This document shows positions 8,965 to 21,781 of a stretch of 42,572 bases of DNA, in pieces; position 1 is the stretch's first letter, and every line of letters starts with the position of its first letter. Position numbers and translations under genes: made by a program. Below the pieces are notes generated by a model that did no database searches, was not told the origin of the DNA, and saw only the letters and a list, made by a program, of their open reading frames with translations. The stretch is from positions 1 through 42,572 of the forward strand of contig JAGWGN010000008.1 in assembly GCA_028867335.1 (NCBI GenBank), in the 5' to 3' direction. This stretch comes from Microcaldota archaeon (GTDB lineage Archaea > Micrarchaeota > Micrarchaeia > Micrarchaeales > CABMGC01).

Positions 8965-8969
8965 AAGAT

Positions 8970-9040
8970 GGAGGTATAGTCTAGTGGTAGGACGCGACCT
9001 TTACACGGTTGAGGCAGGAGTTCAATTCTCCTTACCTCCA
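8970..9040 (+). tRNA. tRNA-Val (anticodon UAC)
   Basis: Acceptor GGAGGTA/TACCTCC plus discriminator A; anticodon arm CGACC-TTTACAC-GGTTG; T arm AGGAG-TTCAATT-CTCCT; CCA not encoded. Confidence 0.95.
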
Positions 9041-9103
9041 TAGAACTCAGAGTAATGGTTCTCTAGGCTTAGTCTTATATATGTTTCCCAGAACATAATA
9101 AAT

Positions 9104-10300
9104 GTGGAAGACGAGAAAAAAAGGCTGCAAAGGAAAATCGACGACCTACTTGCCAGGATAAAGGAGCGCAAGATGCCGGCGGCGAATGTGAGCGCGGTTA
9201 ACAACTGGATAAACTTCATGCGGGCCAAGGGCTCAAATCCAAATACGATACTCAAGAACCTTTACTACATGTCATGGTTTCTAAATTCCCTTTCCGCAAA
9301 AACAGACATCACAAAAGCGACTCGGCAGGAGATTGAGTCGGCCATGGCGAAGATTGAGAGTTCGGACTACTCGGGCACCACAAAGGGAAACATCAAGGTA
9401 ATAATAAAGGCGTTCTACAAGCACTGCCTCGGGGAGGACCTCTACTATCCCAAGCAGATCGCATGGGTCAAGTCCTCAAAAAGCCGCAAAAAGATCCTGC
9501 CTGAGGACATCTTGAGCGAGGAGGAGGTCCTGAAGATGATAGAGGCATCGGGCAACATGAGGGACAAGGCGATAATAGCGGTGCTCTACGATTCCGGAAT
9601 AAGGGTCGGGGAGCTTTTAAGCCTCAGGATAAGAAGCGTCGATCTTTCAGGCGAGCCGGCGCACATAATTGTTGACGGCAAGACAGGCATGAGGAAGATA
9701 CCGATACTCTTCAGCGCCCCGTACCTTTCAAATTATCTGGAGCTTGTCAAGGGCAAGAAGCACGACGAATTCCTCTGGACAGGAATAGGCACTTGGACGG
9801 CATCCAACAAGCTGGTGGATAGCTCCGCAATAAGGAAGCTGCTTAGGATAGTTGCAAAGAAGGCGGGAATACATAAGAGGATGTATCCGCACCTCTTCCG
9901 CCACAGCAGGGCGACATACTACGCGAACAGGCTTACCGAGCAGCAGCTCAAGGCGCTCTTCGGATGGACTGGGGACAGCACGATGGTCAGCACTTACGTC
10001 CATATGAGCGGAAGGGACATCGATGACGCGGTGATGCAGACATACGGCAAAATCCCAAAGGAGATGAGTGCGCCGAAGCTGATCGAGAAGGTATGCCCAA
10101 GGTGCAGGTACGCAAACGGCATCGACTTCCTGCACTGCAAGCGCTGCGGCGCCTCCCTTGAGATGGGCATGACAATGAAGGGAGAGCAGGTGAACAACGC
10201 GCTTAGGGATTCGCTCCTGGAGTCGGCCAAGGACCCGAAGTTCCTAGAGGATTTGATAAATCTACTTTCGCAAAAGAAGGGTGGAAAAAGGAATAGGTAA
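9104..10300 (+). CDS. Tyrosine site-specific recombinase (XerC/D/A-like integrase) with C-terminal zinc ribbon
   Basis: DSGIRVGELLSLRI, KTGMRKIPI, PHLFRHSRATYYANR, STYVHMS catalytic motifs; CPRCRYANGIDFLHCKRCG zinc ribbon; GTG start 64 nt after the tRNA. Confidence 0.93.
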   Translation: MEDEKKRLQRKIDDLLARIKERKMPAANVSAVNNWINFMRAKGSNPNTILKNLYYMSWFLNSLSAKTDITKATRQEIESAMAKIESSDYSGTTKGNIKVIIKAFYKHCLGEDLYYPKQIAWVKSSKSRKKILPEDILSEEEVLKMIEASGNMRDKAIIAVLYDSGIRVGELLSLRIRSVDLSGEPAHIIVDGKTGMRKIPILFSAPYLSNYLELVKGKKHDEFLWTGIGTWTASNKLVDSSAIRKLLRIVAKKAGIHKRMYPHLFRHSRATYYANRLTEQQLKALFGWTGDSTMVSTYVHMSGRDIDDAVMQTYGKIPKEMSAPKLIEKVCPRCRYANGIDFLHCKRCGASLEMGMTMKGEQVNNALRDSLLESAKDPKFLEDLINLLSQKKGGKRNR

Positions 10301-10304
10301 TGAT

Positions 10305-10982
10305 ATGGCCGAGAATGTTTTTCATAGGAGCCTGCTTGCAATAAGCAGCGTAAGCCTCATCGGGAGCTGCGAGACCAGGTTCATGGAGGCGATGGTAGGC
10401 AAACCTAAAGTCACCAAGCAGATGCAGATCGGCAAGGTGATGCACGAGAAACTTGCCGCTCCGCTTCCTAAGATAACAATTGAGGAGGTTATAGAGAAGA
10501 TAAAGTCCGGGGGAACGGGAGGCGTCAGGGAGCTGCCTGTGACGGATAAGATAAACAGGCTAATCGGAAGGATCGACCAGCTGGAGTTGATGGGTAGGAA
10601 CGCCAAGGGCGTCAACAATGCACTCATAATAGATGACAAATACCCCAAGTTCAAATTCAATGAAATGCCGCTCTACTACAAGCTGCAGCTATCCGCCTAT
10701 GCGGTTGCAATAAAGAACTCAGAGGTATTTGGCAGCATATGCGATATAGTTGGCCTTAGGTTGATTTCACGGGAACCAGGATCTCATGTGATAACTGGCA
10801 CTTTTGATGTTGAGGGAGAGGAACTTGCGCAGTGCAAGTCAAATGTCGCAGAAGCGGCAAATGAGGCATGGCAGCTCTATGATCGCAAGAGGGAACCCGA
10901 GCACAGGAGGTTCGATGTCGGGAAGGGGGAGTGGGTCAGGTGCTATTGCAGCTTGGGGAAGGCGGGTTTGGGGTGGTCATAA
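10305..10982 (+). CDS. Cas4/RecB-like PD-(D/E)XK nuclease, possibly altered at its C-terminus
   Basis: N-terminal Cys (GSCETRF), IGRIDQLEL...ALIIDDKYPKF (D...DxK core), YYKLQLSAYAVAI (QxxxY), C-terminal RCYCS. Confidence 0.7.
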   Translation: MAENVFHRSLLAISSVSLIGSCETRFMEAMVGKPKVTKQMQIGKVMHEKLAAPLPKITIEEVIEKIKSGGTGGVRELPVTDKINRLIGRIDQLELMGRNAKGVNNALIIDDKYPKFKFNEMPLYYKLQLSAYAVAIKNSEVFGSICDIVGLRLISREPGSHVITGTFDVEGEELAQCKSNVAEAANEAWQLYDRKREPEHRRFDVGKGEWVRCYCSLGKAGLGWS

Positions 10983-11947
10983 GCACGCAGCAACTCGATG
11001 ACCTACCTCAGGTGTTCGCCAACTCTAGCGCGGTTACCATGTTGCACAACTACAGGGACATCAGCATATACGCCAAGAACGCGTTCAACCTGAATCCTTT
11101 TGAGATTGCATACCTTAGGTCCGCGGCGCAGGGCGAGGCCCTTGTCTTTGACCGCCATCTCGCGCAGCTCGGGCAGTGGTGGCCCGAATATGTGAAAATT
11201 AATCCACTTACAAACGAGGAGAAAGTGAGGCTAGCCGGAATGAATTCCGAATATGCCCCGGAACTCATAAATGAAGCGCAACAGAAGATATCTTTGGGCA
11301 ATGCAGTGACGAAGGCAAGCAAAAGCGTGAAGGCTCATACAATACCGTTGCCTGAAGGGGCGCCAACACCCGGAGAACACGCCGGGCTTCTGGGGATATA
11401 TCGCAATCAGGGCAAGGACCTTGGCACAATCGTCAACTTCATCAGGCAAAAGGGCTGGCTCACAAGTGCCAACTCATTATACGGATACAAAGGAAAACCA
11501 AGTATATTCGAAACACTGGCAAGCAGAGGAATGGTGAAAGTAGTGAATAACATGTATGTGCTCACCGAAGCAGGAATGGTGTGGGTGGATCCAAATGTGA
11601 TTGTATCCGTTCAGTCGGATAAGCTGGGATCGGAGCAGCACAAGCAGCTCCTCATAAAGCTGGTAGACAAACTGCATGAGGACAACATGCTGACAGTATC
11701 AAGAAAGGAAAAGCACTCATTCGACATAGTCGCATATCCGGTCAATGCAAAGAAGAAGAGCCTCTGGGACACAAACGGCGCAAAGGGGTATGAAGCGCAG
11801 ACTAGTGCAAGAACGGATTCGGTAAAAGAGAACATGCACAAATCAGAGAAGTGGAAAATGCCGACGGTGTGGGCTGCAGACAATGCGGAAGTGCTTGAAG
11901 GGATAAAGGTCCAGACAGCCCGTAAGAACGAGTACCTGCTGGTGTAG
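10931..11947 (+). pseudogene. C-terminal fragment of a HerA/VirD4-type ATPase fused to a winged-helix/nuclease-like tail; Walker A and B region missing
   Basis: LGEGGFGVVISTQQLDDLPQVFANSSAVTMLHNYRDISIYAKNAFNLNPFEIAYLRSAAQGEALVFDRH resembles the motif after Walker B in HerA/TraG ATPases; then a winged-helix-like stretch and FDIVAYP...YEAQTSARTDSVKENM. Confidence 0.6.
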
Positions 11948-12272
11948 TCGATATTGAAGGGCCAGAGGCTCCAATCATGGGGACCGAAGCCTCCAACCCC
12001 ATTTAACATATGCGGGTAGTCATATTAGTAAGCTACGATTATGGTACAAATCGATAGATTAGATTTATATAGTAAAACGGACAACATTAATTTGTACAGT
12101 GTTGAATATGAAGAATTTAATCGTCAATAATAAGAACAAGAGCATAATTGTGGTGAAATTTTCAAATCCTAATTGCCCGCGAATGCTTGCGAACGAGAAC
12201 TTTGTGGCATTCAGGGATGACTATAGTGGCAAAATGAGGATAAAAAATATCAAGCTAATGAAAAAACTGAGC

Positions 12273-13304
12273 TCATTTTGATTCTTTCTCAAATAATCTT
12301 TTGTAAGATTCGTATTCTTCCAAATGGAACGGCCATTTGCCGATTATCAAATAAGTCAGCATAGCCCTGTCTATGCGTGGGCTCTCTACTGCCCATAATC
12401 GCTGAATAAGATCAGGACCTCGCTTGGATAGTCTTTCCCCGTCTTCAAATGTGCAAAGATACATGCCGTCATACGCTCCGGTTACGTCTGCAATAAAGCA
12501 ATAGTCGTTGGTTATCTCACTGGCGGTTTCGTTGAGGAGTTCTTTGGCAAAATTTATGAAAAATTTGTGATGGTGTTCCTTGGTGGGAATCAGACGAAGA
12601 CCATATGCCGATATTATCTTTTTGTCTGGTTTCTGAGTAAGTGCAGAAAACTTCTTTATTATCCCTTTTTCTTTCAATTTTCTTAGGATGTAAACAACAT
12701 GCATCGGGTTTTTGATTTTGCATTTTTCACATATCTCTTTTAGCCTCGCTCTAGAATTATTATTTAGGAGCATCAGTACTTTTTTCTCTGAATTTGACAA
12801 TATGGGACTTTCTTTAATGAGTTCGCTCCTCAAAGCTAAAAAGCCTATCGATTTTTCATCCATGATTGATGATTTGAATACTGGTCTGTATTCTCCCAAA
12901 TCCATCCGCAGCCTCCATTCCCAAGCCTTGAAATCTTTGGAGGTTATGCCCACCACATACAACAAAAGATCAAAATCGCCAGTGGCAAGATATGCGTCCT
13001 GAACGAAAATGTCCTTCGTGAACCTCTCCCTCAAAAAATCTATTGATGGGGCCGGATTCTCAAATTTGATTGTTATAATCCTTCCCTCTGTGAAGCCTAG
13101 TGCGGCCTCGTCTAGTTCTAAGGTATATTCAATGTCGTATCTTTTCTCGAGCTCCTTAAGGGCGGCGGCGATATTATGATATGAAATATTGAACCTTCTC
13201 CCCAACTCTTGGAGTGAAACCCTAGAATCCTTGTAAATCTCTCGCAGTATATCGTATGGCAATCCGCTTTTAACATATTCTTGCGTTTCTCGTTTAGCTG
13301 GCAT
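12273..13304 (-). CDS. Lrp/AsnC-like transcriptional regulator with two HTH units
   Basis: KDSRVSLQELGRRFNISYHNIAAALKELEKR and NNNSRARLKEICEKCKIKNPMHVVYILRKLKEKGIIKKFSA. Confidence 0.75.
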   Translation of the reverse strand: MPAKRETQEYVKSGLPYDILREIYKDSRVSLQELGRRFNISYHNIAAALKELEKRYDIEYTLELDEAALGFTEGRIITIKFENPAPSIDFLRERFTKDIFVQDAYLATGDFDLLLYVVGITSKDFKAWEWRLRMDLGEYRPVFKSSIMDEKSIGFLALRSELIKESPILSNSEKKVLMLLNNNSRARLKEICEKCKIKNPMHVVYILRKLKEKGIIKKFSALTQKPDKKIISAYGLRLIPTKEHHHKFFINFAKELLNETASEITNDYCFIADVTGAYDGMYLCTFEDGERLSKRGPDLIQRLWAVESPRIDRAMLTYLIIGKWPFHLEEYESYKRLFEKESK

Positions 13305-13431
13305 AAATGCATCTCAAAATATCATTTATATTTTAATATTATAGGATGTTTTTCTCATTATTAGTATTTTTTTAACAATAACTATATATACAACAAAACT
13401 TATAATACTTATCGAAGTGTGGGGACACAAC

Positions 13432-13545
13432 ATGGCGAACAAATTCGTAAAAGAATCTGGCCATGTGGCTTGTTCTAAGATTCACTCCCTGAATCCCCCA
13501 AGAACCTCCCAAGGGTCCCCACTACTTTCCCTCAAGTCATATTGA
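13432..13545 (+). CDS. Possible 37-aa microprotein (weak)
   Basis: ATG-TGA frame MANKFVKESGHVACSKIHSLNPPRTSQGSPLLSLKSY; TATA-like CTTATAATA about 30 nt upstream; not in ORF track. Confidence 0.3.
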   Translation: MANKFVKESGHVACSKIHSLNPPRTSQGSPLLSLKSY

Positions 13546-13559
13546 ACCTAGTGGATACC

Positions 13560-13715
13560 ATGGACTATCACGAAACAACCAGGAAGATGCTTGCGGCATC
13601 CAAGGCGATGAAAGAGGATTTACCAAAGGTGTACGACTTCCTTCCCCGCAATGACTACTACAGACTCAAGCAACTGCTAGATGAGGCAGAGTCAATACTC
13701 GCCAAACATCAATAG
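13560..13715 (+). CDS. 51-aa microprotein, paralog 1
   Basis: MDYHETTRKMLAASKAMKEDLPKVYDFLPRNDYYRLKQLLDEAESILAKHQ; similar to the next ORF. Confidence 0.6.
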   Translation: MDYHETTRKMLAASKAMKEDLPKVYDFLPRNDYYRLKQLLDEAESILAKHQ

Positions 13716-13723
13716 GTAATCCC

Positions 13724-13882
13724 ATGAACTATTACGCATATATTAGAAGGCGCGTGGCTGACCTGTGCGGCCTGAGATTCAAAATCCAAAAGCTCTTTGC
13801 ATTCGTGAACTATTCAGATTTTGACAGACTGCAGTCGCTGATGAACGAAATGGAGCAGATACTGAAGAAGTACGACAATTAG
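13724..13882 (+). CDS. 52-aa microprotein, paralog 2
   Basis: MNYYAYIRRRVADLCGLRFKIQKLFAFVNYSDFDRLQSLMNEMEQILKKYDN; aligns with the preceding ORF. Confidence 0.6.
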   Translation: MNYYAYIRRRVADLCGLRFKIQKLFAFVNYSDFDRLQSLMNEMEQILKKYDN

Positions 13883-13890
13883 GTGTTGAC

Positions 13891-14031
13891 ATGAAGCTTG
13901 GATTGGAAAACTTTAGATCTTTGGTGTATGGGGAGCCGGCGGAAACGCAGAAGAAGACGTATCTTTGCTGGAAGTGCGGCAAGAACTATGTTGATCCTTC
14001 AGACTACCTTTGGCATATTCAGTCCTGTTGA
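13891..14031 (+). CDS. 46-aa C2HC-type zinc-finger microprotein
   Basis: MKLGLENFRSLVYGEPAETQKKTYLCWKCGKNYVDPSDYLWHIQSC, CxxC-x13-HxxxC. Confidence 0.65.
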   Translation: MKLGLENFRSLVYGEPAETQKKTYLCWKCGKNYVDPSDYLWHIQSC

Positions 14032-14051
14032 ATCCTGAATCGGTGGGGGAT

Positions 14052-14315
14052 ATGGAAAAAGAAAAAGGATTTTTGCTGTTAAAGCCAAAAAGATTAAAGG
14101 ATGCGGGCAAAATTGCAAGGGCAATCGCGATGTGCAAGGGCGTGAAGGAGGTTTTTTTGACTAGCGGAGAATACGGGTTTGTCGCGGCAATCGAGACTAA
14201 TCTTAATGGAGGCATTCAAAATATTGGCAAAATGGTGGAAAAAGGAACCAGATGCGTGAAAGCCAGCACAGTAATCAAACATTACACCTACAGGAAAAAA
14301 TGGGATGGGCGTTGA
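14052..14315 (+). CDS. Stand-alone Lrp/AsnC ligand-binding (RAM-like) domain protein
   Basis: CKGVKEVFLTSGEYGFVAAIETNLNGGIQNIGKMVEKGTRCVKASTVIKH. Confidence 0.6.
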   Translation: MEKEKGFLLLKPKRLKDAGKIARAIAMCKGVKEVFLTSGEYGFVAAIETNLNGGIQNIGKMVEKGTRCVKASTVIKHYTYRKKWDGR

Positions 14316-14387
14316 AAAGAATCTACTAAAGGAATTATAGGCAAAAATAAAGAGCTTAATCCCTTCCAATGGGGCAACGGTGTAAAA

Positions 14388-15401
14388 ATGGAAAAAAATG
14401 TAGATGAAGTAATCTCTAGAAAACTTGGCCATTCAGAAGCGTTGAATGTGAGGTTAGATAAAACAGTGCCAACAGGGTTAAAATTAACAAAAAGAATATG
14501 CAACGAAAACTGCGTATTCAGTAAAAATATGGCGGTTGCCTGCCACGATGACAATTCGTATCGCGGGACAGGTACGGCCATATCAAATACCGAGTTTATA
14601 GGTGCAGTGAAAAAACTATTTGCTGCTACAGGTAAGAAGCAAATAATACATATTGCAGGGGATGGTGAACCAACATTATTTAGGGGAGAGCTGCTTGATT
14701 TAATTAAAAAGTTGAGGGAGTTGCCATATGTTAGTTCCATAAAATTAACAACCAATGGAACGTTGATATCAAATGGTAATCCAGATCTGGCCACACAATT
14801 AAAACGGGCTGGATTGGACAGCGTAAACATATCCCTTCACTCCTTGGATTCGGGAGAATTCAATAGAGTAACAGGACTTAATTCGTTGGGTGAAGTTTTG
14901 AAGGGAATTGATTGTGCCATAACCTCTGGGTTAAGGACTACTATTAATTGTGTTGTGCGCAAAGAGACTTTTGGGGAGGTAGAAGATTACATAAGACTAT
15001 CCGCAGCCAAAGGGGTAAAAATTAAGTTTCTCTTCATGATCGGAGGCGCAGATCAAGCTTACTCTAATAATCTTATAGAGAAAATGGTGGCCTTGCTCTC
15101 AAAGAAGACTACGAAAATATATGACTATGTAGATGGATATCATGCTGAAAAGATTTTTTTCATAGGGGATGCAATAATTGAGGTAAAAGATCCAATAACA
15201 AATAATTGCCCAAATATGAAATGTTTAGTGAGGGATAAGTGTTTAGAGACGTGTAGATATTTTCTACGCATCACTCCTACGGGTTCACTACAGCCTTGCG
15301 GTGTTCGAAACGATAATATTATTGATTTGCTTTCAGAATATACATCAGATAAGACTATAGTATCAGCAATAAAAAGTGGGGGGAAACTACTTGGTGGATA
15401 A
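14388..15401 (+). CDS. MoaA-like radical SAM protein with SPASM/MoaA-like C-terminal Cys cluster
   Basis: RICNENCVFSK (CxxxCxxS), HIAGDGEPTLF, KLTTNGTLI, GLDSVNISLHSLD, C-terminal CPNMKCLVRDKCLETCRYFLRITPTGSLQPCGVR. Confidence 0.85.
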   Translation: MEKNVDEVISRKLGHSEALNVRLDKTVPTGLKLTKRICNENCVFSKNMAVACHDDNSYRGTGTAISNTEFIGAVKKLFAATGKKQIIHIAGDGEPTLFRGELLDLIKKLRELPYVSSIKLTTNGTLISNGNPDLATQLKRAGLDSVNISLHSLDSGEFNRVTGLNSLGEVLKGIDCAITSGLRTTINCVVRKETFGEVEDYIRLSAAKGVKIKFLFMIGGADQAYSNNLIEKMVALLSKKTTKIYDYVDGYHAEKIFFIGDAIIEVKDPITNNCPNMKCLVRDKCLETCRYFLRITPTGSLQPCGVRNDNIIDLLSEYTSDKTIVSAIKSGGKLLGG

Positions 15402-15402
15402 G

Positions 15403-15933
15403 ATGAGAGAGATTGAAACGAAAATTGTGGATTTTGATGAGGAAGATGTGGAGAGGTCATTAAATAAAAATGCGGAATTTGTCTCCGAGAACCTACAAAG
15501 AAGATGGGTTTTTGATCTAAGAGGTGAGGGAAGACACGATTTTGATAAGTTTATAAGAGTGAGAACAAACGGGGACAAAACCACCATAGCATACAAGTTT
15601 AGAGAAGGGAAGGGGGTCGATAACACCGAAGAGTTAGAGGTGAATGTTGATAATTTTGATACCACAGCAGAGATTTTCACAAGACTGATCGATAAGAGAT
15701 ATTATCAGGAGAATAAAAGGAAGACATACAGATACGGAAAAGTTGAGATAACGATAGATTATTGGCCTAAAATCCCGCCAGTAATAGAAATTGAGGGAAA
15801 TAGTGAGGGGGAGATAGAGCAGGCAATTGCCGAACTTAAAATTAAGGGGAGGAATCTTGGAAATATGAGCTGGGAGAAGGTATATGCGTCGTACGGCTTA
15901 GATATTCACTCCTTCAAAATTTTGAAATTCTAG
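15403..15933 (+). CDS. CYTH-domain triphosphatase / class IV adenylate cyclase-like protein
   Basis: N-terminal ExExK (EIETK), FIRVRTNGDKTTIAYKFREG, YGKVEITIDYWPKIPPVIEIEGNSE. Confidence 0.88.
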   Translation: MREIETKIVDFDEEDVERSLNKNAEFVSENLQRRWVFDLRGEGRHDFDKFIRVRTNGDKTTIAYKFREGKGVDNTEELEVNVDNFDTTAEIFTRLIDKRYYQENKRKTYRYGKVEITIDYWPKIPPVIEIEGNSEGEIEQAIAELKIKGRNLGNMSWEKVYASYGLDIHSFKILKF

Positions 15934-15941
15934 ATGATTTT

Positions 15942-16562
15942 ATGCCAAAAATAGTAATTGAGGGAGTCGATGGTTCTGGAAAGACCACCATCGCCCAATC
16001 TCTGAGTACCAAGATAGGTGGTAATTTAATAGCGTCATCACAGGTTTCATTCCTTCCTGCAATAAGAAAATATACAAATTTGGACACTGCAAACACAATA
16101 GCCCGCTTTGGATACTACCTTGCCGTAAATAAATATACTACAGACATTTTAGCAAACGGTGATTCGAAAACCGATGTCTTCGATAGATACATCTATTCCA
16201 CATTGACCACACACATCGCATTGGATACATTGTATAATGACGGAAGGAATATTAAACACATAAAAGAAATTTTTGAACAAGAAAGTCAAAACTTCCCAAC
16301 GCCCGATACTGTTGCTTTTCTGTATGTAAACCCAGAGGTAAGAAAATTGAGGGTTAATCTGCGAGATGTGAGGGCAGACAGCAAACTAGATTTCAATAGT
16401 TCATTTGCTATAGAAACAGAAAAATTACTCAAGGAACTTGCGAAGGATATGAGAGGGGAGGGGATAACAAATGTGGTTGAAATCGATACAAGTAACAAAA
16501 CAGTTGAGGAATCGATGAACATAATACTTAAATCGCATTTGGGATTGATTCAACGTGTTTGA
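15942..16562 (+). CDS. Thymidylate kinase-like nucleoside monophosphate kinase
   Basis: IVIEGVDGSGKTTIAQSL (Walker A), VFDRYIYSTL (DRY motif). Confidence 0.85.
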   Translation: MPKIVIEGVDGSGKTTIAQSLSTKIGGNLIASSQVSFLPAIRKYTNLDTANTIARFGYYLAVNKYTTDILANGDSKTDVFDRYIYSTLTTHIALDTLYNDGRNIKHIKEIFEQESQNFPTPDTVAFLYVNPEVRKLRVNLRDVRADSKLDFNSSFAIETEKLLKELAKDMRGEGITNVVEIDTSNKTVEESMNIILKSHLGLIQRV

Positions 16563-16574
16563 GAAGGTGGTTTT

Positions 16575-17162
16575 ATGCAGAAAAAATTAGGCAAAGATGA
16601 AAAAATAGAAATGCGCGCACTAGAGATCATGCGCGGAATTAATTTGCCTTACCACAACATTGAACATGTAATAAAAGTTTATGAAAGCGCGAGGAATCTT
16701 TGTAAAAATGAGGGCATTTCCGAAGCAGATACTCGTTTAGTCTTGATAGCCGTATTATTCCACGATACGGGCTTTTTAGTTAGGCCGGATGGTGGGAATC
16801 ATGAAGCGGCAAGTGCCCACATTGCAAATACGTCAATGGATTCCCTTCGCTATATGGATACAGAGATAATCCAGGTAAAAAAACTTATTATGGCAACAAA
16901 GTTTCCGCATAATCCGAAGACGCTTTTAGAGAAAATTGTCTGCGACGCAGATCTGGCAATAGTAGGCAGTGACGGGTTTTGGGAGCAAAATGAAAATTTA
17001 AGAAAAGAACGTGGAATCGAGAACATACATGAATGGATTGAGCAGCAATTAAAATTTATGGAAGAACATACTTACTTTACAAAATCTGCAGACAATGTGT
17101 TTGGTGAGAAAAAACGAAAGCATGTCTTTGAGATGAGGCTGAAGCTTCAAAAAGGTGGTTGA
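16575..17162 (+). CDS. HD-domain metal-dependent phosphohydrolase
   Basis: LPYHNIEHVIKVYESA, VLFHDTGFL, ICDADLAIVG. Confidence 0.88.
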   Translation: MQKKLGKDEKIEMRALEIMRGINLPYHNIEHVIKVYESARNLCKNEGISEADTRLVLIAVLFHDTGFLVRPDGGNHEAASAHIANTSMDSLRYMDTEIIQVKKLIMATKFPHNPKTLLEKIVCDADLAIVGSDGFWEQNENLRKERGIENIHEWIEQQLKFMEEHTYFTKSADNVFGEKKRKHVFEMRLKLQKGG

Positions 17163-17507
17163 ATGGAATTCTGTGCAAAATGTGGAACAAAACTTAAGAT
17201 TAAGGTTGCTGGAAAGGACGATGGAAATTTAACTTGCAAGTCGTGCGGGTACAGCGAGGATAAAAAGAAGGAGATGAAAGCAGTTGTTAGGGATCCTGAG
17301 GAACATGTACAAATACATGTAGTAGAGAATGTTAAAGAAGGAAAGGCTATAGTTGAACATGAATGTGGCAGATGTCAGTCAAATGAAGCTTATATCGGAG
17401 AGATTCCCCCAAACAGATTTAACGATGAGCAAACAGTCATTGTTTATACCTGTGTAGACTGTAACAAAACAGAGCGTGTACAAACATCCGGAGGAAATGG
17501 TCTGTGA
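17163..17507 (+). CDS. TFS/RpoM-like (TFIIS-type) zinc-ribbon transcription factor
   Basis: N-terminal CAKCGTKL...CKSCGYS ribbon and C-terminal CGRCQSNEAYIGEIPPNRFNDEQTVIVYTCVDCNKTE; DE dyad retained. Confidence 0.8.
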   Translation: MEFCAKCGTKLKIKVAGKDDGNLTCKSCGYSEDKKKEMKAVVRDPEEHVQIHVVENVKEGKAIVEHECGRCQSNEAYIGEIPPNRFNDEQTVIVYTCVDCNKTERVQTSGGNGL

Positions 17508-17650
17508 TGGGTAGCTTCTCGTTGTTAAAACAAGATATTGTAGATGCAGAAGATGTTTTTACTGGTTTTGTTTCTTGCCAAAAGATGGTCCTATATTACT
17601 TACAGAAACAAATGCCACAAGCCATTCAGGAAGGCGAGTGTGTAGTATAT

Positions 17651-18244
17651 TCAAAGGTAGCGCGCTTCCCTTGCCCCCATCGCGACAACAATTTGCGCAG
17701 TGAGCCGCTTTTCGATGTTCAGGCTCTCCCAGTAACTTTCGATGATGAGCGGCTTGGCATCTCTGCAACCCTTCAGGAGCTTTTGGTGCACCGGTTCCAG
17801 AATGACCGTCCTTTTGGGCAGGAGGTCATACAGGTTGCCCCTGCACGGGATGGACACTACTCCTAGCTCATGCGCCGCCGCAACCCTATGGTTCCCGTCA
17901 ATCATCACGAAATATATGGCGCTTCCGTCCCTTAGCCTAAAGCCGGTGAGAATCGGAGGCTTCTTCTCAAGGAGATCCATGAATTTGTCCTTCGGCAAGC
18001 TAAGGAGCCTTTCCAGCCTCTCGTTCTCCCATGCCTCGAACCCTATGTCCCCTACATTTACCCTGCGGACCCGGTCTCTGCACTTCAGCTTCGCATTGTA
18101 GGCTACGTTACAGAAGAACCGTCCGAATGCCTTTTGTCGCTGCTCCCCTCCTGCCCCGAGCAGCTCTCGCTTGAGCTCTGCTATTCTTGGGCCGCCCATC
18201 TCCGCCGCCGTGACCTTCTTCACCCTCTTGAAAATGTCCAACAT
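17651..18244 (-). CDS. ParB/sulfiredoxin-fold protein
   Basis: YFVMIDGNHRVAAAHELGVVSIPCRGNLYDLLPKRTVILEPVHQKLLKG; start at MLDIFKRVKK. Confidence 0.65.
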   Translation of the reverse strand: MLDIFKRVKKVTAAEMGGPRIAELKRELLGAGGEQRQKAFGRFFCNVAYNAKLKCRDRVRRVNVGDIGFEAWENERLERLLSLPKDKFMDLLEKKPPILTGFRLRDGSAIYFVMIDGNHRVAAAHELGVVSIPCRGNLYDLLPKRTVILEPVHQKLLKGCRDAKPLIIESYWESLNIEKRLTAQIVVAMGAREARYL

Positions 18245-18282
18245 ACGCACTAATGCTGTGCTTTTCTGATTCAAAACCTTTG

Positions 18283-18415
18283 CTGGCGAGCGCCGCCATG
18301 GCGAGCCCGAAGGGCGAGGACGCGGCGCGAGATATGCAATTGCATATTGGAACGCGGGACGAGCCGCGCTAAAGCGCATCGAACGAAGAGAGATGCGCGG
18401 GCCGCGGCGAGGCAA
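18283..18415. repeat. GC-rich cluster of inverted repeats (possible structured RNA or centromere/origin-like site)
   Basis: CGCGGC(18321-18326)/GCCGCG(18363-18368) enclosing the 16-bp palindrome ATATGCAATTGCATAT (18332-18347); GCCC-GAA-GGGC (18305-18315); GCGCATC/GATGCGC (18374-18380/18392-18398). Confidence 0.5.
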
Positions 18416-18887
18416 TAGAGTTCTGGATCATCTTTTACTTAAGCCTAAGGCAAAGCTTAGGCTAAGCTTTTGGTGGATATGTTGGTGGAGGGGGCGGTCA
18501 AGCCGTTGATGTGGGCTAAGCGGGTGGCTAAATTGGTGGTGAAGGCTGCGGTGCTTATGGAGGCTGTGATCTGTCCAAGGCCATAGTCAGTAACGACTAT
18601 GCGCTCGCCTCGCCCTCCTAGGCTAGGGCTCGGCTCGCGGCTTGGCCAGAATATCTGCAAGTCCATTATTGCAGGAAGAGTGTCTTATCGTCTGGGCACA
18701 TTCTCTCCTTAGAATGCAAATCTCCTCATCGGTCGGGAAGAGTTTCAGGGAGAGTTATGGCTGAAGAATAGAGTTTTAGTTCTTAATCGCCTATATAGGA
18801 AACGCGGGATATGCAGGTCAACATTTGGGCACAATTACCCTCGAAACTACATGAGTCTCTAGGCGTCGTGTCCCTTACCTCCATTTC

Positions 18888-19145
18888 TCAATCTCTCTTG
18901 TCGTATGGTGAAAGGGTGACAAGCTGCCATTTCACCTTGTGCTCACAGCATATTAGGCCCGGAACCTTCGTTCCTGCGGCGAGGAAAAGCCCGCTGGTGG
19001 CCTTTTCCACCACAGAGCAGCCCTTATCCTCGTCTTTATTCGAGTGGGCGACATAAACGTAATCCCCGGAGGTTGTGACTTTTTGCCCCGACTCTATTAT
19101 CTCACCAAGTTTTGTCTTGGTCTGATTGTTCTTGTTCCTAAACAT
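18888..19145 (-). CDS. Small protein, weakly YjzC-like
   Basis: 85 aa ORF GEIIESGQKVTTSGDYVYVAHSNKDEDKGCSVVEKATSGLFLAAGTKVPG...VKWQLVTL. Confidence 0.5.
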   Translation of the reverse strand: MFRNKNNQTKTKLGEIIESGQKVTTSGDYVYVAHSNKDEDKGCSVVEKATSGLFLAAGTKVPGLICCEHKVKWQLVTLSPYDKRD

Positions 19146-19163
19146 AATCCCATCTCTTAAGCG

Positions 19164-19742
19164 TCAGATTACTTTGGTTGCCGGCTTCTTTGAAGGCTCT
19201 AGATTGAAGTGGCTGCGTATGAGCTTTGCCGCCTCGTTGGGGCTTAGCTGACTGTTCTCTATTGTGAAGCTGCCATCTATTGGCGCGACCTTTGGCAGAT
19301 CGTAGCTCCTGAGGAACTCCTTTAGTTGATCGGCATCCCGAATCTTGCCAAAGTCCTGCCTTGATTTTCCGTCGACCCGCTCTATAAGAACCTCCCTTGG
19401 TGCGTAAAGGTAGACAAAGCAGACCTTTCCCCCGTTCTGCTCTATCCTAAACCTCAGATTGTCGGCGGTCTGCTGGTGGCTCCCCTTTATCCATGCCGAG
19501 GTAAATATCGTGCTTATCTGCTCCCTTGCCGCATTCTCGAGCAGCTCAATTCTGTACTTGTTTACAAGCCTGTTGAATGTCGGGGTGCCGAACTCGAAGA
19601 TAGTCTTGACAAAGTCGACCGAGACATGGTTATGGAAGAGCTTGTAGTTTGTCATCGTGGCAAGCTCCATCGCGACTGAGAGCTTTCCCACTGCCGGGGG
19701 TCCGTAGATGACCACAAGCTTCATCGGATTTGCAGTGCTCAT
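19164..19742 (-). CDS. P-loop kinase-like NTPase
   Basis: MKLVVIYGPPAVGKLSVAMELA; ATGA overlap with the upstream HD gene. Confidence 0.75.
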   Translation of the reverse strand: MSTANPMKLVVIYGPPAVGKLSVAMELATMTNYKLFHNHVSVDFVKTIFEFGTPTFNRLVNKYRIELLENAAREQISTIFTSAWIKGSHQQTADNLRFRIEQNGGKVCFVYLYAPREVLIERVDGKSRQDFGKIRDADQLKEFLRSYDLPKVAPIDGSFTIENSQLSPNEAAKLIRSHFNLEPSKKPATKVI

Positions 19743-20374
19743 AGACTTCTCAGCGCCCTCTTCAAGTTTTCCCTTGCCCTCGCCTCGTAGAAGAGTGCGA
19801 AGAATTCTGTTGAATAGATTGACTGCCTCTCCAAAAATCCTTTTAGCACATTCGAGCGGCCTTTCTTGTAGTCCGCAGCCGGAACCCACGAATACTCCTT
19901 TCTCACATTCTTCTCGTATCTGTCGAAGATAACTTTCGGCTGCGCGAGTATGGAGAGGTCAATGTCAACCATGTATCTTGTGTCCCAATCGTAGATCGGG
20001 TTACCTGTGTGTTTTGTGGCAAGAATCATCCGTTCTACGCTTCGTATAAACTTCTCGCCTTGCCCCAAACCCTGTGCGAGCGACGTGGCCCATTCGGCGC
20101 TTTTCTCCTCGTTGTCCTTCCTCTTTGAGTCGTAGATTGCATCGTGGAAGTAGAGAGCGAATTCAATTGCCTTCTTGTCGTTTACCAGGTGCCCGACCTT
20201 GTCTAGTTCATTTAGGCATGAGGCTATGTGGTCAAGATTGTGGTAAGGCCTTGAGGAGTATGAGTGCGAAAGCGAAGAATAATGCGGAGCGTGGCCGTTA
20301 TCTGCTCCGCCAAGCCCCTTCCAGAGTGTCGCAAATCTGCTCTCCAAAGCATCCGCACTTAGAGTCTTCTCCAT
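19739..20374 (-). CDS. HD-domain phosphohydrolase
   Basis: RPYHNLDHIASCLNEL, ALYFHDAIYDS, MVDIDLSILA. Confidence 0.85.
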   Translation of the reverse strand: MEKTLSADALESRFATLWKGLGGADNGHAPHYSSLSHSYSSRPYHNLDHIASCLNELDKVGHLVNDKKAIEFALYFHDAIYDSKRKDNEEKSAEWATSLAQGLGQGEKFIRSVERMILATKHTGNPIYDWDTRYMVDIDLSILAQPKVIFDRYEKNVRKEYSWVPAADYKKGRSNVLKGFLERQSIYSTEFFALFYEARARENLKRALRSL

Positions 20375-20440
20375 GTTCTCGGTATAAGTAGAAATTTCCC
20401 TTTATTTAAGTATATTGTGTTGCTTTGTTTTCTTGATCTT

Positions 20441-21781
20441 TCACTCGAACTTGATGCCCCTTAAAAAGTTGATTATCCTCTGGTCCATCATGATGTGGCG
20501 CTTCTCTATCTTCTTTGTGAGGACTATCCCCTCAAGGGAGGTGCACCTGCTCAGCGCCACGTAGAGCTGGCCGTAGGCGAATGTCCCGCTGCCTACATCG
20601 ATTATCACGTGCCTAAACGTCTTTCCCTGGCTCTTGTGGATAGTTATCGCCCATGCAAGCATTATTGGGTACTGAACAAAGCTGCCCGCAACCTTTGAGT
20701 TGAGCTTGAGGGAGGTCTTGTCGTATGAGGACTTGAACATCTCCCACTTGTGCGGATTCACCTCTACGATCGGACCGTCCGCGAGCTCGACGAGCACCTC
20801 ATCGCGCATTGTTATCCCAGGGGTTATCGCGGTTATCGTGCCGACGCTTCCGTTCACCCACAGGTCGTTCTTGTCATTGTTTAGCATCATCACCTGCGCG
20901 CCAACCTTTATTGCAAGGTTCTCCTCTGCCGGGAAGCTCTTCTTCTCGAAATCCCCATCGTACTTTGCGGCGTAGGTGTACTCCCTCCCTGGAAGCCTCT
21001 TCATCTGCGCGCTGTTAATCTCCTCGGCAAGCTTGTTTGTCGTCGTGAGGGAGATGTACTTGTCAGAGACATTTGGTGAGAAGAACGGGTTGAAGCGGCT
21101 GTTAATCTCCTCGAGGTCCTCCTCGGTTGCGGTGTTGTTTCTGATTGCGTTGAGCAGGCCTATGAAGTGCTCGTCTGTGTGGCGGTAGTTCTTCTTTAGC
21201 TCTATGTATGTTATCGGAAGCTTCTCGAATGAATGGGCATCGAAGAAGTACTCGCTCTTGTAGTTCGCTCGAAACATCTCAAACTCTTCGGATGCGACCA
21301 CCGGCGGGAGCTGGTAGAGATCACCTATGAATATCATCTGCACTCCTCCGAAAGGAAGTGAGCGGTCCTTGCCGTTTAGCCTCATAAACGAGTCTATGCA
21401 GTCAAGCAGGTCGGCGCGGACCATGGAGATCTCATCTATCAGTATCGCGTCGAGCTTTCTGTAGGCCGCCCTGAGGTTGGGGTAGAGGATCTTTGTCGTG
21501 TCAGGGGTGATTCCTGGCTTGAAGTGGAAAAAGGAGTGTATGGTCTGCCCCTTCACGTTCAATGCGGCGACGCCCGTGGGGGCCAAAACGACCACGTTCT
21601 TCTTTGTGTTGCTTTTGAAGTGGTCGATCAGCGTTGACTTGCCCGTACCTGCCCTTCCTGTTATGAAGACGTTCTTTGCCGTCTCGTTCATCAGCGAGAG
21701 TGCCCGCTTGAAGTCGCCGTTCAGCTCGATGTGCAAGCTCTCCTCCTTCCTACTGCTCAGGTTTGCTTGCTCTGGTGCCAT
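20441..21781 (-). CDS. Pif1/RecD-like superfamily 1 helicase
   Basis: FITGRAGTGKSTLIDHF, VLAPTGVAALNVKGQTIHSFF, ILIDEISMVRADLLD, AWAITIHKSQGKTF, YVALSRCTSLEG. Confidence 0.93.
   Translation of the reverse strand: MAPEQANLSSRKEESLHIELNGDFKRALSLMNETAKNVFITGRAGTGKSTLIDHFKSNTKKNVVVLAPTGVAALNVKGQTIHSFFHFKPGITPDTTKILYPNLRAAYRKLDAILIDEISMVRADLLDCIDSFMRLNGKDRSLPFGGVQMIFIGDLYQLPPVVASEEFEMFRANYKSEYFFDAHSFEKLPITYIELKKNYRHTDEHFIGLLNAIRNNTATEEDLEEINSRFNPFFSPNVSDKYISLTTTNKLAEEINSAQMKRLPGREYTYAAKYDGDFEKKSFPAEENLAIKVGAQVMMLNNDKNDLWVNGSVGTITAITPGITMRDEVLVELADGPIVEVNPHKWEMFKSSYDKTSLKLNSKVAGSFVQYPIMLAWAITIHKSQGKTFRHVIIDVGSGTFAYGQLYVALSRCTSLEGIVLTKKIEKRHIMMDQRIINFLRGIKFE

Follow-up and report, generated by a model that had tools for sequence, protein, structure and literature searches.

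Organization of the tRNA-Val locus

Positions 1 to 42,572 of contig JAGWGN010000008.1 (referred to here as the window; 42,572 bp) derive from a Microcaldota archaeon whose 0.96-Mb assembly consists of 61 contigs and is 83% complete, and contain a putative integrated mobile element (9030-18884) abutting a tRNA-Val gene. The tRNA-Val (anticodon TAC) is at 8970-9040 on the forward strand (Rfam RF00005, 69.7 bits; placed at 8969-9041 by ARAGORN) and is the predicted integration target, remaining intact after integration. A tyrosine integrase gene (9104-10300, forward strand; Pfam Phage_integrase 1.4e-18) starts 64 nucleotides (nt) past the end of the tRNA and encodes a 398 amino acid (aa) protein; its open reading frame (ORF) is complete on one side of the element and is not split by integration in the manner of suicidal SSV-type integrases. 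The putative attL core, CCTTACCTCCAT, is composed of the 11 terminal nucleotides of the tRNA plus one T (9030-9041), and an exact copy at 18873-18884, also on the forward strand, corresponds to attR, such that there are direct repeats at both ends of the interval and one of them is the 3’ end of the tRNA. An exhaustive count reveals no further exact copy on either strand of the window, and a match of at least 12 nt that includes the tRNA end was obtained in 8 of 1000 dinucleotide-preserving shuffles of the downstream DNA. The right end of the element (18245-18872) is non-coding according to the ORF list and has no Rfam match. This layout was proposed in an earlier note prepared from the sequence alone, and all of its coordinates are correct to within one base.

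The integrase family and its attachment sites

The six catalytic residues of the integrase (R167, K193, H263, R266, W288 and Y298) are all present, as are four cysteines of a C-terminal zinc ribbon (C331, C334, C345 and C348), and all ten positions are invariant in an alignment of 11 homologues. Its nearest relatives are in genomes named Candidatus Micrarchaeota, on which the assignment of the host to this phylum is based, and the family is present in 16 of 60 related genomes, with a patchy distribution and up to four copies per genome. A same-strand tRNA ends within 500 bp upstream of the integrase at 50 of the 79 family loci in a public genome collection, and none was seen on the opposite strand; of the first 26 loci (44-73% identity), 24 show this arrangement, and of the remaining pair one begins close to the end of a contig. 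The tRNA targets represent 17 amino-acid isotypes, and many of the tRNAs have introns. Two other genera (G017 and G025) have diverged integrases at the tRNA-Val(TAC) that lies beside either aspC or ATP-synthase and diphthamide-synthase genes.

The earlier note cautioned that a 12-bp repeat is short for an att core, a concern that is answered by the family as a whole. Thirty-one loci have at least 3 kb of downstream DNA, and at these we scored repeats that include the last nucleotides of the locus’s own tRNA. Repeats of at least 11 nt were found at 11 of the 31 loci, compared with none (0/31) in the antisense control and 8 of 860 (0.9%) when loci were swapped; with a threshold of 12 nt or more the corresponding numbers are 9 of 31, none, and 2 of 860. 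These family repeats are 11-16 nt long, extend from the 3’ strand of the T-stem to the tRNA end or a few nucleotides beyond it, and give element sizes of 5.3-13.6 kb. The repeat in the window shares its register with the cores of 10 other family members, and because repeats of 11-16 nt occur at 11 of 31 loci, far above chance, a 12-bp att core is the norm for this family. An 11-mer considered as an att candidate for the tRNA-Val element of G017 was rejected, as it fails to extend across the 3’ end of the tRNA.

The nonamer TCTCTAGGC, which had been proposed to represent arm-type integrase sites, is present on the inner side of each core (9060-9068 and 18856-18864, both on the forward strand), and these are the only two copies in the window. 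A 9-mer common to the attL inner flank and a random 80-nt piece arises in about 1.7% of trials. The two copies are candidate arm-type sites, although such a role is tentative because other family members do not have matching direct repeats at both ends. We therefore rejected direct 9-mers on both inner sides as general arm sites; L143 and L170 have inverted repeats of 9-10 nt in their place. An inverted repeat (AGTTC/GAACT) around the attL core was also set aside, as it is not general across the integrase family. Separately, many family members (L116, L117, L120, L123, L133 and others) have a T-loop-like sequence, GGTTCAAATCC, 19-22 nt past the tRNA end, and 14 of 51 loci score at least 8 for this feature where 2.0 are expected; it is perhaps a candidate integrase binding site. 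The window has GGTTC near 9057, overlapping a copy of TCTCTAGGC.

Comparison with congeners and alternative explanations

The congener G001, whose aspC is 84% identical, has the gene order aspC, tRNA-Val, two unrelated ORFs within 1.36 kb, TauE, and a short-chain dehydrogenase, and the latter two genes are in the same order in the window past 21.8 kb. There is no integrase and no cargo at the G001 tRNA-Val, and all of the DNA from the integrase through a PIF1 helicase is missing. A close relative thus lacks the element at this locus, with the qualification that the right flank also differs and the junction itself is unproven. The earlier note regarded its reading as refuted should the interval prove to consist of core genes common to sister genomes; this was not seen, as the interval is lacking from G001 beside the same tRNA-Val. 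The ORFs between tRNA-Val and TauE in G001 (180 and 186 aa; L033, 17.5-18.6 kb) have no counterpart seen in the window.

We conclude that 9030-18884 is very probably a 9,843-bp integrated mobile element inserted at the 3’ end of tRNA-Val, an interpretation first offered in the earlier note and supported by its absence from G001, the intact integrase, the tRNA linkage of the family, and the short att repeats found family-wide. Three observations weigh against this. First, 20 of the 31 testable loci have no att repeat of at least 11 nt within the DNA examined. Second, the sister-genome comparison is borne out only in part: G001 lacks the insert, but a clean empty site, with tRNA-Val leading straight into 18885, did not turn up in the genomes examined, these being congeners queried with the kinase and DNA of the right flank, together with relatives of the sister elements in G017 and G039. 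Third, the genes at 18888-21781, outside the proposed attR, are also missing from all four congeners.

These right-flank genes are four in number (an 85-aa ORF, an AAA_33 kinase, a 211-aa ORF that is HD-like by eye, and the PIF1 helicase) and form a second variable module beside the element, since the DNA absent from G001 extends through PIF1; the inserted DNA relative to G001 is therefore about 12.7 kb. The position of TauE in G001, 1.36 kb past tRNA-Val, and the absence of the four genes from all congeners would fit a larger element that starts at tRNA-Val and ends at about 21.8 kb, immediately ahead of TauE, with the 12-mer at 18873 being an internal or older att site. We regard this as improbable, as the forward strand has no further core copy ahead of TauE and, between 18885 and 25957, none within two mismatches, no second att site borders the four genes, and their GC (guanine plus cytosine) content is host-like. 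Moreover, other genomes of the family also encode PIF1 and the kinase. For PIF1 the four congeners yield no match, but six other genomes of the family have relatives of ~60% identity, and in G005 the two genes are adjacent without this integrase. The simplest reading is that the four genes would already have been part of the chromosome when the element inserted.

A change in base composition within the interval, reported in the earlier note, is real and is not interval-wide. The GC profile shows a foreign-looking cargo block at 11948-17650 (38% GC; range 37-42%) set within a backbone of 50-55%, and both ends of the interval are host-like. The composition steps at 11948 and 17650, together with the host-like GC content of the integrase, nuclease and ATPase remnant (see below), could be accounted for by an immobile genomic island with a resident integrase gene and a fortuitous 12-mer, in which only the low-GC block was acquired. 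This is very improbable given the patchy, multicopy occurrence of the integrase across Micrarchaeota and its association with tRNAs, a chance expectation of about 0.8% for the 12-mer (leaving aside the family-wide statistic), and the absence of the interval from G001. A provirus, for example one that is pleolipovirus-like, is just as remote a prospect, for although the closest viral integrases are those of the Pleolipoviridae proviruses GacPV1 and ThalV2 of Archaeoglobales (37-40% identity), Pfam and PHROGs matches reveal no VP3-like, VP4-like or other viral structural gene and no rolling-circle Rep gene in the interval, and the PHROGs matches are limited to the integrase and generic enzymes.

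From what is understood of tyrosine recombinases, an integrated element at tRNA-Val would have arisen from a circular intermediate with a single core, the integrase exchanging strands within the core between this attP and the tRNA-Val 3’ terminus (the last 11 nt plus one). An intact tRNA would be rebuilt on the left and a 12-bp copy left on the right, and the tRNA would remain functional, its 3’ end being supplied by the core. More generally, elements of this family enter a wide variety of tRNA genes through cores of 11-16 bp, and their exchangeable cargo often includes restriction or other defence genes. The parts of this scheme that the sequence shows are the integrase, the target rule, the core register, the absence in a congener, and the cargo. 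As the integrase and both att cores are intact, the present copy could still excise.

Element backbone and its damage

The integrase gene is followed by a backbone gene encoding a PD-(D/E)XK or Cas4-like nuclease (10281-10982, forward strand; PDDEXK_1 1.9e-4, Cas4 1e-3), and homologues also adjoin the integrase in G002 (84% identity) and L139 (40%). The end of this gene is altered at a deletion junction (10930-10985), where, near 10950, it runs into the central part of a HerA-type ATPase gene, with the consequent loss of both Walker motifs. Alignment to L089 and L131 and analysis of the reading frame at the junction indicate that the remnant (10931-11947, forward strand) is the C-terminal half of the ATPase; the full-length proteins of L089 (719 aa) and L131 (686 aa) have membrane helices, Walker A and Walker B. 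The HerA-type ATPase has no match among phage records, and there is no relaxase among the Pfam, NCBIfam or PHROGs matches of the window proteins. The element does not have the relaxase and complete transfer apparatus of an integrative and conjugative element, and the truncated ATPase probably leaves this copy badly impaired in transfer. A leftwards-transcribed gene at 17651-18244 encodes a putative ParB-like protein, assigned by its DGNHRVAAAHELG motif and having no Pfam match.

The cargo operon

The low-GC block holds a leftwards-transcribed gene for an Lrp/AsnC-like winged-helix regulator (12273-13304; HTH_24 2.2e-9, with matches to LysM/Lrp models); all of the cargo genes to its right are on the forward strand. 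Reading of the ORFs identifies four small ones (13560-14315), one of them zinc-finger-like (13891-14031), and single homologues of these lie beside related radical S-adenosylmethionine (SAM) genes in L226 and L225. There follow genes for a MoaA-like radical SAM protein with a second cysteine cluster at its C-terminus (14388-15401; MoaA models to 1.7e-33, below cut-off), a CYTH/triphosphate-tunnel phosphohydrolase with an ExExK motif (EIETK; 15376-15933; cyaB 3.5e-10, below cut-off), a thymidylate-kinase-like nucleotide kinase (15942-16562; Thymidylate_kin 8.8e-12, PADLOC PDC-M51B 3e-16), an HD-domain phosphohydrolase (16575-17162; HD 2.3e-9), and a TFS/TFIIS-like zinc-ribbon protein (17163-17507; TFS_arch 4.3e-10, below cut-off). 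Relatives of the radical SAM protein (44-53% identity) are encoded in about nine other Micrarchaeota genomes, with CYTH beside the radical SAM gene in six, the kinase in four, and the TFS-like gene in three. The operon is predicted to modify and process a nucleotide.

Four sister elements have recognised defence genes in a space comparable to that of the window cargo: ThaI-type restriction-modification in L089, a type II methyltransferase and nuclease in L117, type I HsdRMS with an OLD-like ATPase in L100, and Pbe/Dnd-like proteins in L142. The window operon is therefore a candidate, as yet unproven, defence cargo that is conserved and uncharacterised. Its gene company and chemistry lead us to hypothesize that any defence role would act via a modified nucleotide.

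A more specific proposal is that the five genes from the radical SAM gene rightwards constitute a new viperin-like antiviral system, in which a modified nucleotide blocks viral transcription and the TFS-like protein lets the cellular RNA polymerase recover. PADLOC gives weak matches of the radical SAM protein to viperin (pVip; 3.6e-9) and of the kinase to VakA (1.8e-10), and as in pVip systems with VakA the radical SAM gene adjoins that of a thymidylate-kinase-like kinase. However, the radical SAM protein is MoaA-like as judged by profile, sequence and predicted fold, and is much nearer to MoaA than to viperin in profile score (1.7e-33 versus 1.4e-6). Its first cluster is CX3CX9C and not the CX3CX2C of viperins, and this is invariant in seven aligned members (the window protein, L219, L220, L221, L222, L223 and L226). 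The predicted structure (predicted local distance difference test score 80) has MoaA as its best PDB match (7e-12), with viperins also among the structural matches; model confidence is low around the CX3CX9C motif. The second cysteine cluster and the additional CYTH, HD and TFS-like genes further distinguish the operon from pVip, and we consider the viperin-like proposal unlikely. Among the papers listed by a literature search, none contained the CX3CX9C motif string, which is not proof of absence, and a search for the radical SAM cargo found no viral contig, its best plasmid matches being ordinary MoaA.

Relationship to known elements

A review (PMC8371274) covers archaeal elements that are integrated at tRNA genes and whose integrase gene is not split, the pNOB8-like arrangement. 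These resemble the window element in that a tyrosine integrase lies within the element close to one att site, a tRNA 3’ end is targeted, and the tRNA is restored. They differ in having cores of 40-50 bp, compared with 11-16 bp here, and a catalytic motif of R..YxxR..Y instead of R..K..HxxR..W..Y. Archaeal att sites are usually 40-60 bp, and shorter ones have been reported for Thaumarchaeota integrated elements (8 bp), Msmi-Pro1 (11 bp) and SNJ2 (13 bp) (PMC8371274); these have in common with the window element a very short exact att repeat, but their hosts and cargo differ, and here tRNAs of many isotypes are targeted by a single integrase family. Micrarchaeota are not mentioned in the review’s main text, and our literature search found no direct report of tRNA elements in Micrarchaeota or DPANN; in the Mia14 genome, an island carrying a XerD-family integrase has been described (PMC5498576). 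The window element illustrates a route by which ultra-small archaea gain accessory genes, through a widespread family of tRNA-3’-end integrases ferrying restriction and other defence genes, and its cargo slot points to a conserved nucleotide-chemistry operon.

Two further observations concern other members of the integrase family. Relatives with 34-42% identity are present in genomes labelled as bacterial (WOR-3, Zixiibacteriota and Phycisphaerae; L146, L159, L164 and L174), and these could reflect either binning error or cross-domain transfer. A family element adjoining a tRNA-Ala gene (L134, 9903-18709) encodes a 993-aa secreted-looking protein, and could be a provirus.

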